From Lentisphaeria bacterium (GTDB lineage Bacteria; Verrucomicrobiota; Lentisphaeria; Victivallales; Victivallaceae), in NCBI GenBank assembly GCA_017628235.1, contig JAGBZM010000037.1, forward strand, positions 1 through 41,391: a DNA stretch of 41,391 nt. Direction: 5' to 3'. Shown here piece after piece: positions 29,313 through 37,894 of this stretch. The position numbers and the translations under genes were made by a program. The notes beneath the pieces are model-generated. The model did not search any database. It worked only from the letters and a program-made list of their open reading frames with translations, and was not told the DNA's origin. Every line of letters begins with the position of its first letter. Within the stretch, counting starts at the first letter, position 1.

Positions 29313-31055
29313 TTACTTTTCGTGATAGTTGGTGTGCAGCAGGTGATGAGCCTTTTCGCTGCCCGGAGTGCCGAGATACTCTTCATAGAGTTTCTTGATA
29401 TCGGCATTCTCATGTGAAAGACGCAGAGTTTTGCCTTCATCTTCAGTATAAAGGCCTTTCATGCGCTTTTCAAGCAGCGCGGTATCACCGTGCAGGAAGG
29501 GCTGTCCGCCGCCGTTGATACAACCGCCGGGGCAGGCCATGATTTCGATCGCCTGGAAGCGATCCGGGTTCTTACGAACTTCATCCAGGACTTTTCTGGC
29601 ATTGCCCAGACCGGAGCAGACCGCCACATTGATGCTTTTGCCCGGAGCAATTTCGACTTTGGCCTCTTTGATGCCGTCCAGACCGCGAACTGCGCGGAAG
29701 TTGATGGCGTCGCCTTCGAGGTTTTTGCCGTTGAGCATGAAGTAGACGGAACGGCAGGCTGCTTCAAGCACACCGCCGGTGACACCGAAAATGTCGGCGG
29801 CACCGCTGGATTCACCCAACGGACTGTCAAATTTGTCATCATCCATGTTGGCCAGATTGACGCCGGCTTCACGGAACATTTTGCACAATTCGCGGGTGGT
29901 TACCACATAGTCCACATCGCGGACGCCGTTGGGGGCAAATTCCGGACGGGCGGCTTCATATTTTTTCGCCTGACAGGGCATGATGGAAACGACGATCAAA
30001 TCTTCCGGTTTGACTCCGATCTTTTCGGCATAATAGCTCTTGGCGATCGCACCGAACATCTGCTGCGGAGATTTGCAGCTGGAAGGAATGTGGAGCAGAT
30101 CCGGATAGTTATGTTCGATGAAGTTGATCCATCCCGGGCAGCAGCTGGTAAGAATCGGCAGATTCTTTCCGGCTTTGATCCGTTCAACGATCTCATTGCC
30201 CTCTTCCATAATGGTGAGGTCAGCGGAGAAGTTGGTATCGAAAACCTTATCAAATCCCAATGCCCGCAGACCGGCGACCAGTTTTCCGGTTACCGGGGCG
30301 CCGGCCTCAAAACCGAATTCCTGACCGACTGCCACGCGGACCGCCGGAGCAGTCTGCACGATGACAGTTTTCGCCGGATTGTTGATCGCGGCCCAGACTT
30401 TTTTCACATAGCTGATACCGGTGATGGCACCGACGGGGCAGACATTGACGCACTGTCCGCAGAAGGTACAGTTGGTATCGGCCAGCGGGATCATGCTGGC
30501 AGTGCCGACTTTGGCGGAGAATCCGCGACCGTTGCCGGTCAGGGCTCCGACAGTCTGAACGTTGTTGCAAACTGTTTCGCAGCGGCGGCACATGATGCAT
30601 TTGGACAAATCACGCATGATCGCTTCGCTGGAATCATCCACTGCAAAGCGGTTTTTTGCGCCGGAGAAAGCGATTTCCTGAATACCGAATTCAGCGGCGA
30701 GCATCCGCAATTCGCAATCCTGGCTCTTGGCACAGGTAAGGCACTGCTGCGGGTGGTCGCTGAGCATCAGTTCCAACACCGTACGGCGGGCATTGAGCGC
30801 GCGCTGACTGTTGGTGTGGACAACCATGCCCTCCATTACCGGAGTGGCGCAGGCGGGAGCGAGGTTGCGGCGGCGTTCGACTTCGACCACGCAGATACGG
30901 CAGCTGGCCGGCTTATTGGAAATACCGCAGCCGAGTTTGTCGCAGTAGCAGAGGGTCGGAATATTGATATTGAGCTTGCGGGCTGCGTCCAGAATAGTGG
31001 AGCCGGCGGGAACCGTTACCTGCTTGCCGTTGATGGTAAGATTGACATTGTTCAT
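29313..31055 (-). CDS. hydA: [FeFe] hydrogenase catalytic subunit
   Basis: This 580-aa protein has an N-terminal [2Fe-2S] ferredoxin domain (~1-75), a His-Cys [4Fe-4S] domain (CLTCAKSQDCELRML), two [4Fe-4S] clusters (CIMCRRCETVCN; CTFCGQCVNVCPVGAI), and the H-cluster domain with TSCCPGWINF, IMPCQAKKYE and ACPGGCINGGGQP. The C-terminal small-subunit segment (LYEEYLGTPGSEKAHHLLHT) is fused. It produces or consumes H2. With the NuoF- and NuoE-like subunits upstream it forms an NAD-linked, probably bifurcating group A3-type complex. The start was moved from 31124 to the ATG at 31055, after AAAGGA, because the longer frame lies inside hydB. Maturases HydEFG are not in this window. Confidence 0.95.
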   Translation of the reverse strand: MNNVNLTINGKQVTVPAGSTILDAARKLNINIPTLCYCDKLGCGISNKPASCRICVVEVERRRNLAPACATPVMEGMVVHTNSQRALNARRTVLELMLSDHPQQCLTCAKSQDCELRMLAAEFGIQEIAFSGAKNRFAVDDSSEAIMRDLSKCIMCRRCETVCNNVQTVGALTGNGRGFSAKVGTASMIPLADTNCTFCGQCVNVCPVGAITGISYVKKVWAAINNPAKTVIVQTAPAVRVAVGQEFGFEAGAPVTGKLVAGLRALGFDKVFDTNFSADLTIMEEGNEIVERIKAGKNLPILTSCCPGWINFIEHNYPDLLHIPSSCKSPQQMFGAIAKSYYAEKIGVKPEDLIVVSIMPCQAKKYEAARPEFAPNGVRDVDYVVTTRELCKMFREAGVNLANMDDDKFDSPLGESSGAADIFGVTGGVLEAACRSVYFMLNGKNLEGDAINFRAVRGLDGIKEAKVEIAPGKSINVAVCSGLGNARKVLDEVRKNPDRFQAIEIMACPGGCINGGGQPFLHGDTALLEKRMKGLYTEDEGKTLRLSHENADIKKLYEEYLGTPGSEKAHHLLHTNYHEK

Positions 31056-31063
31056 GGTTGGAT

Positions 31064-32995
31064 TCATCCTTTGACAATCGCTTTTTTGGGACAGCCGTCG
31101 ATACAGGCACCGCATTTGATGCATTTGGCCGGATCGATGACATGTTTCTGTTTGATTTCGCCTTCGATAGCTCCCACCGGGCAGAAACGTTTACACTTGG
31201 TACAACCGATACAGACATCGGTGATCGTCAGGGTATAAAGTTTCGGGCAGGTGCCGGCCGGACATTTTTTATCCACGACGTGAGCCATATACTCATCGCG
31301 GAAGTAACGCAGCGTACTGAGAATCGGGTTCGGCGCAGTCTGGCCGAGTCCGCAGAGCGCAGTGTCAGTGATGGTTTTGGCCAGAGATTCAAGCTCATCG
31401 AGCATTTCGACCGTACCATTGCCGTCGCAGATTTTTTCCAGCATTTCGAGCATACGGCGGGTACCGATACGGCAGGGGGTGCATTTGCCGCAGGACTCAT
31501 CTTTGGTGAAGTCCAGATAGAATTTAGCCATTGCGGGCATGCAGTCTTTGTCGCTCAATACGATCATACCGCCGGAACCCATCATCGAACCGATTTTGGA
31601 CAGATTGCCGTAATCGATGGGGGTATCGAGGTTCTCTTTGGTGATACAACCGCCGGAAGGTCCGCCGGTCTGGACCGCTTTGAATTCTCTGCCGCCGGAA
31701 ATTCCGCCGCCGATCTCATAAATGATTTCGCGCAGAGTGGTTCCCATCGGGACTTCGACCAGACCGACGTTGTTGATCTGTCCGGCCAGAGCGAATACTT
31801 TGGTACCGCTGTTGCCGCTGATGGTGCGTTTGAAGTTGCCGTTTTCATCAAATTCAGGCTGCCAGTTACCGATTTTGGCGTACCAGGCGGCACCATTGTT
31901 AATGATGACCGGGATGGAAGCATAAGTTTCCACGTTGTTGACGTTGGTGCTGCAGCCCCAGTAACCGCCGCCGATGTTGGCCGGGAAGGGCGGTTTGGTA
32001 GTCGGTTCGCCGCGCATACCCTCCATCGAGTGGATCAACGCAGTTTCCTCACCGCAGACGAATGCTCCGGCACCGAGTTTGATATCAATGTCAAAGCAGA
32101 AATCAGTACCCATGATGTTTTTGCCGAGCAGACCAGCTTCGCGGGCCTGTTCGATCGCCAACTGCAGACGGTTGACAGCCAGCGGATATTCCGCGCGGAT
32201 GTAGACCAGACCCTGCTGGGCACCGATCGCGTAAGCACCGATGGCCATTGCTTCGATGATGCTGTGCGGGTCACCTTCCATGATGGAACGGTCCATGAAT
32301 GCTCCGGGGTCACCTTCATCGGCGTTGCAGACGATATATTTTTCATCAGCTTTCACACCGGCGGCGATCTTCCATTTCATACCGGTGGGGAAGCCGGCAC
32401 CGCCGCGTCCGCAGATACCGGAATTGAGCACTTCCTGGACAACTTCATCGGTGGTCATGCTGAAAAGACATTTGCTCAATGCTTTGTAACCGTCATGGGC
32501 GATGTACTCTTCGATATCTTCCGGATTGAGCAGACCGCAGTTGCGCAGGGAGATACGCTGCTGTTTGGCGTAGAAGGACATTTTGGCATAATCCTGAACG
32601 CGCTCTTTGAGTAGCGGTTCGACGAAAAGGAGTCTTTCGACGATCTGCTTGTTGACGATGTGGCTTTCGACGATTTCTTTGGCATCATCGGGAGTGACCT
32701 GTACATAAAAGACATTGTCCGGCATGACCTTGACGATCGGGCCCTGGGCGCAGAAACCGAAACAGCCGGTCTGCACGACCCGGACATCATTTTCCAGACC
32801 GTTTTCTTTGATGTACTTGTTGAGATTATCCATCAGCTCCTGGGCGTTGGAAGCATGGCATCCGGTACCGCCGCAGCAGAGGATATCTTTTTTGGCAGAA
32901 TTGATGTCGTGGACATCGGTGCAGCGGAGGACAAGTTTGCCTTTGGCTGCGTTGAAAGCATTTACCAATGCTTCCCGTGAATCGATCTTATTCAT
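31064..32995 (-). CDS. hydB: Hydrogenase diaphorase subunit HydB (NuoF-like)
   Basis: This 643-aa protein has an N-terminal thioredoxin-like [2Fe-2S] domain (CCGGTGCHASN; QTGCFGFCAQGP), then the NuoF core with the NADH/FMN motif GRGGAGFPTGMKW, VCNADEGDPG, and the [4Fe-4S] site SCGKCTPCRIGTRR. Two C-terminal [4Fe-4S] clusters follow (CIGCTKCKRFCPVGAI; CIKCGACIDGCPKKAI). It is the NAD(H)-binding and bifurcating subunit in HydABC complexes. It lies three bases after hydC, and hydA follows nine bases after it. Confidence 0.95.
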   Translation of the reverse strand: MNKIDSREALVNAFNAAKGKLVLRCTDVHDINSAKKDILCCGGTGCHASNAQELMDNLNKYIKENGLENDVRVVQTGCFGFCAQGPIVKVMPDNVFYVQVTPDDAKEIVESHIVNKQIVERLLFVEPLLKERVQDYAKMSFYAKQQRISLRNCGLLNPEDIEEYIAHDGYKALSKCLFSMTTDEVVQEVLNSGICGRGGAGFPTGMKWKIAAGVKADEKYIVCNADEGDPGAFMDRSIMEGDPHSIIEAMAIGAYAIGAQQGLVYIRAEYPLAVNRLQLAIEQAREAGLLGKNIMGTDFCFDIDIKLGAGAFVCGEETALIHSMEGMRGEPTTKPPFPANIGGGYWGCSTNVNNVETYASIPVIINNGAAWYAKIGNWQPEFDENGNFKRTISGNSGTKVFALAGQINNVGLVEVPMGTTLREIIYEIGGGISGGREFKAVQTGGPSGGCITKENLDTPIDYGNLSKIGSMMGSGGMIVLSDKDCMPAMAKFYLDFTKDESCGKCTPCRIGTRRMLEMLEKICDGNGTVEMLDELESLAKTITDTALCGLGQTAPNPILSTLRYFRDEYMAHVVDKKCPAGTCPKLYTLTITDVCIGCTKCKRFCPVGAIEGEIKQKHVIDPAKCIKCGACIDGCPKKAIVKG

Positions 32996-32998
32996 AAC

Positions 32999-33514
32999 TT
33001 ACCCCAGCTTCTTGTATTCGTTGACGATCTCAACCGCCTTGGCGGGAGTGACTTTGCCGTAGACTTTGCCGTTGACTATCATCACCGGAGCCAGTCCGCA
33101 TGCGCCGACGCAACGGAGCGCGGAGATGGAGAAAAGTCCATCCTCGGTCGGGTTGGTATCCGCTTTTATGCCGAGTACGCGTTCGATTTCAGAGAGAACT
33201 TTTTCCGAACCTTTGACGTAACAGGCAGTACCCATGCACACATCGATGCAGTATTTGCCTTTCGGCTCAGTGGAGAAGTAGTTGTAAAAGCTCACCACAC
33301 CGGAAACCTGAGCTTCGGTGAGGAAGAGTTTTTTGGCGACATGGATCTGGACTTCGCGGGGCAGGTAACCGAAAATATCCTGCGCGCGATGCAAAACCTG
33401 GATCAACCGGCCGCGACGGCGTTCATCCGTCCGGTCAATGCCGAGCCCGTCGATGAATGCATCGAGTTCGGCAAATTTGGCGGCTGCTCCTTCCGACAAT
33501 TTGTTGCAACACAT
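32999..33514 (-). CDS. hydC: Hydrogenase subunit HydC (NuoE-like)
   Basis: This 171-aa thioredoxin-fold [2Fe-2S] protein is like NuoE. The ligands are Cys in VCMGTACYVKG and in LRCVGACGLAPVM. LIQVLHRAQDIFGYLPREVQ and GVVSFYNYFSTEPKGK are family segments. It passes electrons within the HydABC complex. Its promoter and leader lie in the 142-bp gap after rex, which holds a candidate Rex box, a hairpin and a strong orphan Shine-Dalgarno. Confidence 0.95.
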   Translation of the reverse strand: MCCNKLSEGAAAKFAELDAFIDGLGIDRTDERRRGRLIQVLHRAQDIFGYLPREVQIHVAKKLFLTEAQVSGVVSFYNYFSTEPKGKYCIDVCMGTACYVKGSEKVLSEIERVLGIKADTNPTEDGLFSISALRCVGACGLAPVMIVNGKVYGKVTPAKAVEIVNEYKKLG

Positions 33515-33656: not shown

Positions 33657-33663
33657 TTAAAGT
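33646..33663. promoter_or_regulatory. Candidate Rex operator before hydC
   Basis: TTGTTATAGAATTAAAGT overlaps the end of rex. Compared with the known Rex box TTGTTAA-N4-TTAACAA, the left half matches 6 of 7 and the right half 4 of 7. This is a degenerate match placed where a Rex-controlled hyd promoter would be. Confidence 0.35.
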
Positions 33664-34316
33664 AACTGTTTTTTTTCTTTCAATATTCTGTCCTGCTTGC
33701 GCTTGACCGCCAGCATGGCCAACCCCCCGGCAATAACTTCCCGCTGAACCACCACATCCGGCGGCACCTGCAGAGAGACATTGGCAAAGTTCCAGATGTA
33801 TTTCACTCCGAGAGCAACCAGTTTATCGGCAATATCCTGTGCCGCGTGGTTGGAAACACATATGACTGCGATTTCCGGACGGTTTTCTGCAAAGCACGAA
33901 GCCATATCAGCAACATCCCGGACTGTCCGTCCGTAAATTTCCCGGCCGATTTTTTCCGGGGAGGTGTCGAAAATCTGTTTGATGCAGAAGCCGTAATGTT
34001 CAAAATCATTGTAACCGAGCAGGGCAGTACCGAGAGAACCGGCTCCGATCAGAGCTGCCGACAACGGTTCTTCCCAGCCGAGATAGTTTTTGATATAACG
34101 GATCAATTCATTGACGTCATAACCGACCCGGCGCTGGCCGGAAATGCCGGTGAGGGAGATATCTTTGCGGACAACAATCAACTCGATATTCATGTATTCG
34201 GCAAGTTCGGTGGAGGATACGCGCACTTTGCCCTCAGCCTGCATTTTCAACAACTTATGCAGGTAAGTCGGCATCCGGCGGATCGCCGGAATATTCAATA
34301 TTTTGTCCTGACGCAT
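33657..34316 (-). CDS. rex: Redox-sensing transcriptional repressor Rex
   Basis: This 219-aa protein has the Rex layout. A winged-helix DNA-binding domain (residues 1-80) contains IPAIRRMPTYLHKLL, VSSTELAEYMNIE and VRKDIS-TGISGQRRVGYDV. A Rossmann NAD(H)-binding domain has LIGAGSLGTALLGY and later NFANVSLQVPPDVVVQ. Rex represses fermentation and hydrogenase genes when NAD+ is high and lets go on NADH. It lies upstream of hydC on the same strand, so it fits as the hydrogenase regulator. The ATG at 34316 follows GGAGGGG. The open frame extends 33 codons further but with no family match. Confidence 0.93.
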   Translation of the reverse strand: MRQDKILNIPAIRRMPTYLHKLLKMQAEGKVRVSSTELAEYMNIELIVVRKDISLTGISGQRRVGYDVNELIRYIKNYLGWEEPLSAALIGAGSLGTALLGYNDFEHYGFCIKQIFDTSPEKIGREIYGRTVRDVADMASCFAENRPEIAVICVSNHAAQDIADKLVALGVKYIWNFANVSLQVPPDVVVQREVIAGGLAMLAVKRKQDRILKEKKQLL

Positions 34317-34336
34317 AAAAAGAAAGCCCCTCCGCT

Positions 34337-34357
34337 GTTTTCCGGTCCCCGGAAAAC
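34337..34357 (-). promoter_or_regulatory. Hairpin beside the rex ribosome-binding site
   Basis: GTTTTCCGG-TCC-CCGGAAAAC forms a perfect nine-bp stem in the rex leader. On the minus strand it ends three bases before GGAGGGG (34327-34333), so it could limit or present the ribosome-binding site. Confidence 0.45.
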
Positions 34358-34419
34358 ACCCGCGTTCACCGCTGCGACGACCACGATGAATCTTTCTTCC
34401 AAACTTACGCCGCACTCAT

Positions 34420-34448
34420 AATATAACACAAAAAATATCTATTTTCAA
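34420..34448 (-). promoter_or_regulatory. rex promoter
   Basis: On the minus strand TTGAAA (34443-34448), a 17-nt spacer (34426-34442), then TATATT (34420-34425), giving a leader of about 95 nt. The spacer is filled by one copy of a 20-bp direct repeat, so a protein bound there should block RNA polymerase. Confidence 0.65.
34426..34445 (-). repeat. 20-bp direct repeat, copy 1 (in rex promoter spacer)
   Basis: Minus-strand sequence AAAATAGATATTTTTTGTGT. It overlaps the last three bases of the -35 and abuts the -10. It contains the near-palindrome AAAATA-GA-TATTTT and a TTGTG that resembles a Rex half-site. Confidence 0.8.
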
Positions 34449-34456
34449 ATGAATTT

Positions 34457-34476
34457 ACACAAAAAATATCTATTTT
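34457..34476 (-). repeat. 20-bp direct repeat, copy 2 (upstream of rex -35)
   Basis: Identical to copy 1 over 20 bp, in the same orientation, with a start-to-start distance of 31 bp. That is about three DNA turns, so both copies face the same side of the helix. Confidence 0.8.
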
Positions 34477-37594: not shown

Positions 37595-37894
37595 TTAACG
37601 GAAATCAGCCGGATTGAGCTTTTCAACGGCTTCTTTGAGTTCTTTGCCGGCGCGGAATTTGATCACGGTGCGCTCGGGGATGATAACTTCATTTTTGGTG
37701 TCGCGGGGATTGCGGCCTTTGCGGCTTTTGCGGACTTTGATTTCGAAAACACCGAAGTTACGCAATTCAATATCATTTCCGGAAATCAATTCTCCGGCGA
37801 TGCTGTCCAAAGTGCGCTGGACGATATCAGCCACATCGCTCTGAATAATTCCGGTTTCTTTGGCAATTTTGACAACAAGGTCACGTTTAGTCAT
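37595..37894 (-). CDS. HU/IHF family DNA-binding protein
   Basis: This 99-aa nucleoid protein matches HU/IHF: MTKRDLVVKIAKETG start, IELRNFGVFEIKVRKSRKGRNPRDT with the DNA-contacting arm, and VIIPERTVIKFRAGKELKEAV. It bends and packs DNA as a dimer. RNPRD and not RNPQT in the arm leaves open whether it is HU- or IHF-like. AGGAG precedes the start. The AT-rich upstream DNA (37921-38040) has TATAAT and palindromic ATATTATAATAT but no well-spaced -35. Confidence 0.93.
   Translation of the reverse strand: MTKRDLVVKIAKETGIIQSDVADIVQRTLDSIAGELISGNDIELRNFGVFEIKVRKSRKGRNPRDTKNEVIIPERTVIKFRAGKELKEAVEKLNPADFR

Follow-up and report, generated by a model that had tools for sequence, protein, structure and literature searches.

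The gene for the NADH/NAD-sensing repressor Rex in the stretch of DNA analysed here (the window, 41,391 nucleotides long) is preceded by a 20-bp direct repeat embedded in its promoter, which raises the question of what binds there. An earlier note on this sequence had left two answers side by side: in one, an unusual tandem site lets Rex regulate itself; in the other, rex and thereby hydrogenase expression are under the control of a second regulator. We consider it probable that the repeat consists of two Rex operators of a type found across the order, placed in direct orientation three helical turns apart on the rex-hydCBA promoter.

The repeat, its promoter and the genes behind it

The 20-mer AAAATAGATATTTTTTGTGT occurs twice without a mismatch on the minus strand, at 34426-34445 and 34457-34476, with the starts 31 bp apart, just as the earlier note had reported; stretched to 25 bp, the copies are identical at 23 of the 25 positions. 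With three or fewer mismatches allowed, a scan of the window returned just these two copies (0 expected), and at the same tolerance the 20-mer has no other match in the 1.46-Mb draft genome that contains the window. When the 300-bp upstream region was shuffled 1000 times at the dinucleotide level, exact repeats reached a length of 12 at most; for 2000 shuffles of its AT-rich 100-bp core the maximum was 13, compared to 20 observed. Thus, the repeat is far beyond chance.

The promoter consists of a -35 hexamer TTGAAA (34443..34448, minus strand), which aligns with the TTGAAA or TTGCAA of relatives, a 17-bp spacer and a -10 hexamer TATATT (34420..34425, minus strand), which is part of a GTGnTATATTA invariant across 11 aligned promoters; a leader of ~97 nt follows, and rex begins at 34316. 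This promoter had been recognised before, but the claim that one copy occupies exactly its spacer is not accurate, as the copy also takes up the last three bases of the -35 hexamer. The TTGTG that had been read as a Rex half-site was dropped as evidence, since it overlaps an extended -10 element (TGTGT, 34426-34430, minus strand, before the -10 hexamer) of the form TRTGn that is common to many unrelated promoters of the lineage and says little about Rex. We place a candidate upstream Rex-like operator, TAGATATTTTTTGTGTAA, at 34455..34472 (minus strand) within the copy at 34457-34476, with its centre at about -50 from the predicted start, and a candidate downstream operator, TAGATATTTTTTGTGTTA, at 34424..34441 (minus strand) within the copy at 34426-34445, over the spacer between -35 and -10.

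The genes run in the order rex, hydC, hydB, hydA, all on the minus strand. The 219-aa product of rex (33657..34316; NF003994, 222.6 bits; PF06971, PF02629) has the winged-helix N-terminal and NAD-binding C-terminal domains of Rex and its base-contacting residues, here Arg50 and Lys51. Behind it, hydC (32999..33514; NCBIfam HoxE/NuoE models and synteny with rex) encodes a NuoE-like subunit of an NADH-dependent [FeFe] hydrogenase, hydB (31064..32995; NCBIfam and synteny) a NuoF-like protein, and hydA (29313..31067; NF040763, 870 bits, above the cut-off) an NADH-dependent [FeFe] hydrogenase of group A6. Much of the genus keeps rex-hydCBA together as a fixed unit, and the gene upstream of rex usually differs. 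A gene for a DNA-bending protein, which we take from its sequence by eye to be HU/IHF-like, lies ~3 kb upstream of the repeat (37595-37894, minus strand).

The rex transcript opens with ~100 nt that are conserved among nine species. This 5' leader (34317..34414, minus strand) contains an TGCGGCGT at the predicted transcript 5' end (34407-34414) that is invariant in the nine species, and two hairpins with covarying stems, hairpin 1 at 34365-34390 and hairpin 2 at 34338-34356. The loop of hairpin 1, TGGTCGTCGCAG, is 12 nt long and invariant, and the CGTCGCA within it is complementary to TGCGGCG; the two could form a pseudoknot, in which the pairing never varies. Exact or one-mismatch copies of the loop region were found only before rex in a genus search, and the leader model likewise matched only before rex among the loci searched. 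The leader had no match in Rfam and could be a new cis-regulatory RNA.

Conservation of the two boxes in relatives

The upstream regions that we compared came from a whole-genome search and from named Lentisphaeria MAGs of ruminant and gut origin. Both boxes are present upstream of rex-hydCBA in 11 species, the window included, at a distance of either 30-31 bp or 40-41 bp, that is, with one extra helical turn; the sequence farther upstream is mostly unrelated among these species. The pattern is AAATAG.TATTTTTT, with its centre near -50 or -60, and AATAG.T.TTTTT within the spacer, where AATAG..TTTTT is retained in relatives. About nine more distant species have the upstream box alone, as AAGATATTTTTTTATTAT or TTGATATTTTTTTCTCTA. 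Four species have exactly the upstream operator TAGATATTTTTTGTGTAA and two others a near-identical one; this form is therefore maintained rather than random. The earlier note had proposed to look for the repeat upstream of rex in relatives and had named a lack of conservation there as the finding that would speak against it; the repeat is conserved.

The symmetry of the site is not the one first suggested. The inverted repeat AAAATA-GA-TATTTT does exist in each copy, yet evolution has not kept it, and we therefore ruled it out as the operator axis. In the nearest relative (G020), both copies read AAAAAGATATTTT, and relatives keep an axis in the middle of the T6 tract (TAGATA-TTTTTT-TATCTA). 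Between the window and G020 both copies are altered alike, from AAAATAG to AAAAAG, and this parallel change suggests either homogenisation of the copies or a common binding constraint.

A dyad across the order and its probable link to Rex

The box takes the form of a dyad, TAGATATTTTTTTATCTA, at several loci, and a genus search for this dyad gave 35 matches compared to ~11 for the reversed control. The full form found across the order is an 18-bp dyad, TTGATA-TTTTTT-TATCAA. Its flanks vary symmetrically, as TTGATA..TATCAA (TT..AA), TGGATA..TATCCA (TG..CA) and, order-wide, TCGATA..TATCGA (TC..GA), which is expected of a site bound by a dimer. We read the target genes off the loci downstream of the dyad; names beyond those matched by profiles are our reading of the protein sequences. 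The full dyad TTGATATTTTTTTATCAA precedes adhE in six of the six genomes with an assessable start and promoter, usually as two sites, and precedes hydCBA in four genomes that lack an adjacent rex; it is also found before gap and serC. Type-2 rex genes carry the dyad on the start point, at +6 to +10. In other families of the order it stands before adhE, etfB, a NuoE-type operon and the gene for a hydrogenase-like iron-sulfur protein. This set of targets (adhE, hyd, gap, etf, rex) is the classic Rex set, and Rex autoregulation through an unusual tandem site, the first of the two original answers, is supported both by these targets of the full form and by the persistence of the repeat in relatives.

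The upstream operators also keep to one face of the helix: measured from the -35 hexamer, their centres are 15-17, 25-28 or 36 bp upstream (rex, gap, adhE, hydC), a helical spacing with P = 5e-4 in a non-redundant set and 0.016 in a conservative one. These fixed distances point to a helical-face constraint, set either by RNA polymerase touching Rex or by Rex dimers that cooperate with each other. Among single loci, an upstream Rex-like dyad is seen at the adhE promoters L161/L160 (both of genome G015), L150, L151, L165 and L166, and adhE of G015 has a clear second dyad just after the -10, with the two centres 75 bp apart, near seven turns. At three NAD-glutamate dehydrogenase-like genes (L069, L075, L076) the box lies ~110 bp upstream of the -10, and their spacer is of the AAAATATTTT type, like the spacer copy of rex.

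To score the rex promoters we used a matrix built solely from sites outside the rex-hydCBA promoter class, with a maximum of 29 bits. In ~20 of 23 rex promoters the best-scoring site of this matrix is the upstream box, which reaches up to 23.5 bits. In the window's 300-bp rex upstream region, the upstream copy scores 6.8 bits and the downstream copy 6.5 bits, with the next best site at -2.5, and the shuffle P value of the best copy is 0.086. Both copies keep the left half TAGATA and the T6 core, and the TATC of the right half is replaced by GTGT; the right half is thus GTGTAA or GTGTTA, not TATCWA, and the two half-sites of a Rex operator are not both present. With one half only, the copies are therefore termed a half-degenerate derivative rather than a full operator, which Rex would probably still bind.

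The loss of the right half throughout the subclade (TAGATATTTTTTGTGTAA and close variants) leaves room for the view, which we think unlikely, that the boxes are former Rex operators at which Rex binding has been lost and that they now boost the promoter as UP-like or bent A/T-rich DNA. The stretch from about -60 to -42, upstream of the -35 and shifting in helical steps, is indeed A/T-rich, and no further full dyad (TAGATATTTTTTTATCTA with two or fewer mismatches) was found in the window's own draft genome (G000, 54% complete) or in G020, nor was the dyad found in the gap promoters of these two genomes. UP elements of strong promoters are A/T-rich at about -60 to -40, as here, but dyad symmetry, a copy in the spacer and sites at the start point of other genes are not features of UP elements. 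An UP element needs neither the AGATA nor the second copy in the spacer, both of which are conserved; moreover, the window and G020 differ in the same way at both copies, and the T-tracts of gap and adhE are oppositely oriented at the same helical phase. As an explanation of the motif itself, an UP element, which is A/T-rich, restricted to the region upstream of the -35 and free of dyad constraint, fails on the symmetric flanks and on the type-2 rex genes, whose sites fall at +6 to +10.

If the bound protein is Rex, the motif should track the presence of Rex, and it does. Rex was scored by its DNA-binding domain, and in the Rex-containing genomes (108 of 120 genomes of the order) we found 351 motif matches compared to 90 for the control (P = 4e-15), while 11 of the 12 genomes without Rex gave 14 matches compared to 17 for the control. 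The twelfth, the AT-rich G039, was set aside: it has 21 matches versus 3, and in all seven of the sampled regions the matches fall inside long open reading frames. The one exception to the co-occurrence is G029, which is 91% complete and has the dyad without a detectable Rex; at this completeness the absence may be a gap. Its locus L115 carries a perfect TTGATATTTTTTTATCAA before hydC.

That exception, and a motif unlike the canonical operator TTGTGAANNNNTTCACAA, are what favour a different dimeric regulator on TTGATA-T6-TATCAA, one that would control hydrogenase and fermentation genes in place of Rex; we regard this as improbable. The target set and the enrichment in Rex-containing genomes both belong to Rex, and so does the geometry. 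The earlier statement that the site is not the Rex consensus is literally correct, but the lineage dyad has the Rex geometry TTGNN-N8-NNCAA and the key bases. The 8 bp between its pentamers are the Rex-type spacing, which rules out an FNR/CRP-type site (TTGAT-N4-ATCAA, the FNR spacing being N4, or TGTGA-N6-TCACA), and the order-wide motif has the form of a Rex operator, an 18-20 bp inverted repeat with TTGNNA half-sites and a 6-bp A/T core. The dyad has G at -7 and A at -4, and in the Rex-DNA structure from T. maritima, Arg48 and Lys49 read the bases at exactly these positions (PMC8836258). Both residues are present in the window's Rex, as Arg50 and Lys51, and throughout its group, so the recognition residues fit. 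Furthermore, the only Rex of G015 (98% complete) belongs to the window's type, its recognition region differing hardly at all, and adhE of this genome carries full dyads; therefore this type of Rex can pair with the full motif. A second regulator of rex need not be assumed. A genus search for TTGTGA-W6-TCACAA gave mostly weak palindromes with two mismatches, for which the control was unsuitable, and canonical sites elsewhere in the genus are possible.

A recent tandem duplication or an assembly artefact without function, which the identity of the two copies over 20 bp might suggest, is scarcely credible, as the two-box layout recurs with diverged sequence in 11 independently assembled species.

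A working model and comparison with known Rex systems

Rex elsewhere acts by NADH-relieved repression, and by analogy this is the simplest reading of the window. When NADH is low, Rex dimers would occupy both operators, aligned on a single side of the helix, and RNA polymerase would be blocked, directly so by the copy in the spacer; the other copy, three turns farther upstream and just ahead of the -35, would face the same way. As NADH rises, Rex would be released, and rex and the NADH-linked hydrogenase would be made. Most likely, then, rex and the hydrogenase genes regulate themselves in the usual Rex manner; we infer that the bound protein is Rex, that it binds cooperatively and that the effect is repression. 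A point against this model is that a single site at -50 is an unusual position for a repressor. There is a small chance that the Rex of the Victivallales is not solely a blocker but activates, or switches sign with NADH, from the upstream site, because the upstream operators share a helical face, like those of activators that touch RNA polymerase, and are sometimes joined by a site at the start point. Their helical phasing also raises the question of how Rex acts here.

If correct, this model provides a predicted Rex operator, TTGATA-T6-TATCAA, and a target set for a poorly studied gut order of the Lentisphaeria, and ties the hydrogenase and ethanol genes of these bacteria to NADH through a precise sequence. 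We found no description of TTGATA-T6-TATCAA in the searchable literature; the Rex-motif survey of Ravcheev 2012 is beyond that scope and might mention the motif.

The nearest known motif is the Rex operator of Thermoanaerobacter ethanolicus, ATTGTTANNNNNNTAACAAT or TTGTTA-N6-TAACAA (quoted in PMC5886521). Like the motif described here, it is an 18-20 bp dyad with a TTGNNA half-site and a 6-bp A/T core that precedes adhE and hydrogenase genes; in T. saccharolyticum, too, two sites are predicted upstream of adhE. The present motif differs in its half-site (TTGATA against TTGTTA) and in a core that is T6 almost without exception, and the window copies retain one half only. The canonical Rex operator TTGTGAANNNNTTCACAA (S. 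aureus, PMC2883068; PMC6391272) is equal in length and agrees at -7 (G) and -4 (A), but is T-G at -6/-5, where the lineage dyad is A-T. At the operator of T. maritima Rex (TM0201), Arg48 and Lys49 contact G5 and A8 (PMC8836258), and the corresponding residues and bases match here, whereas Gln46, Lys43 and Gly61 of that protein are Val, Glu and Arg in the window's Rex. In Caldicellulosiruptor bescii, Rex is autoregulatory and a repressor of hydrogenase genes (PMC6391272); the window differs in its tandem direct sites 31 bp apart and its single rex-hydCBA unit, and is best explained as a lineage-specific variant of this known system, with Rex autoregulation through tandem half-degenerate operators.
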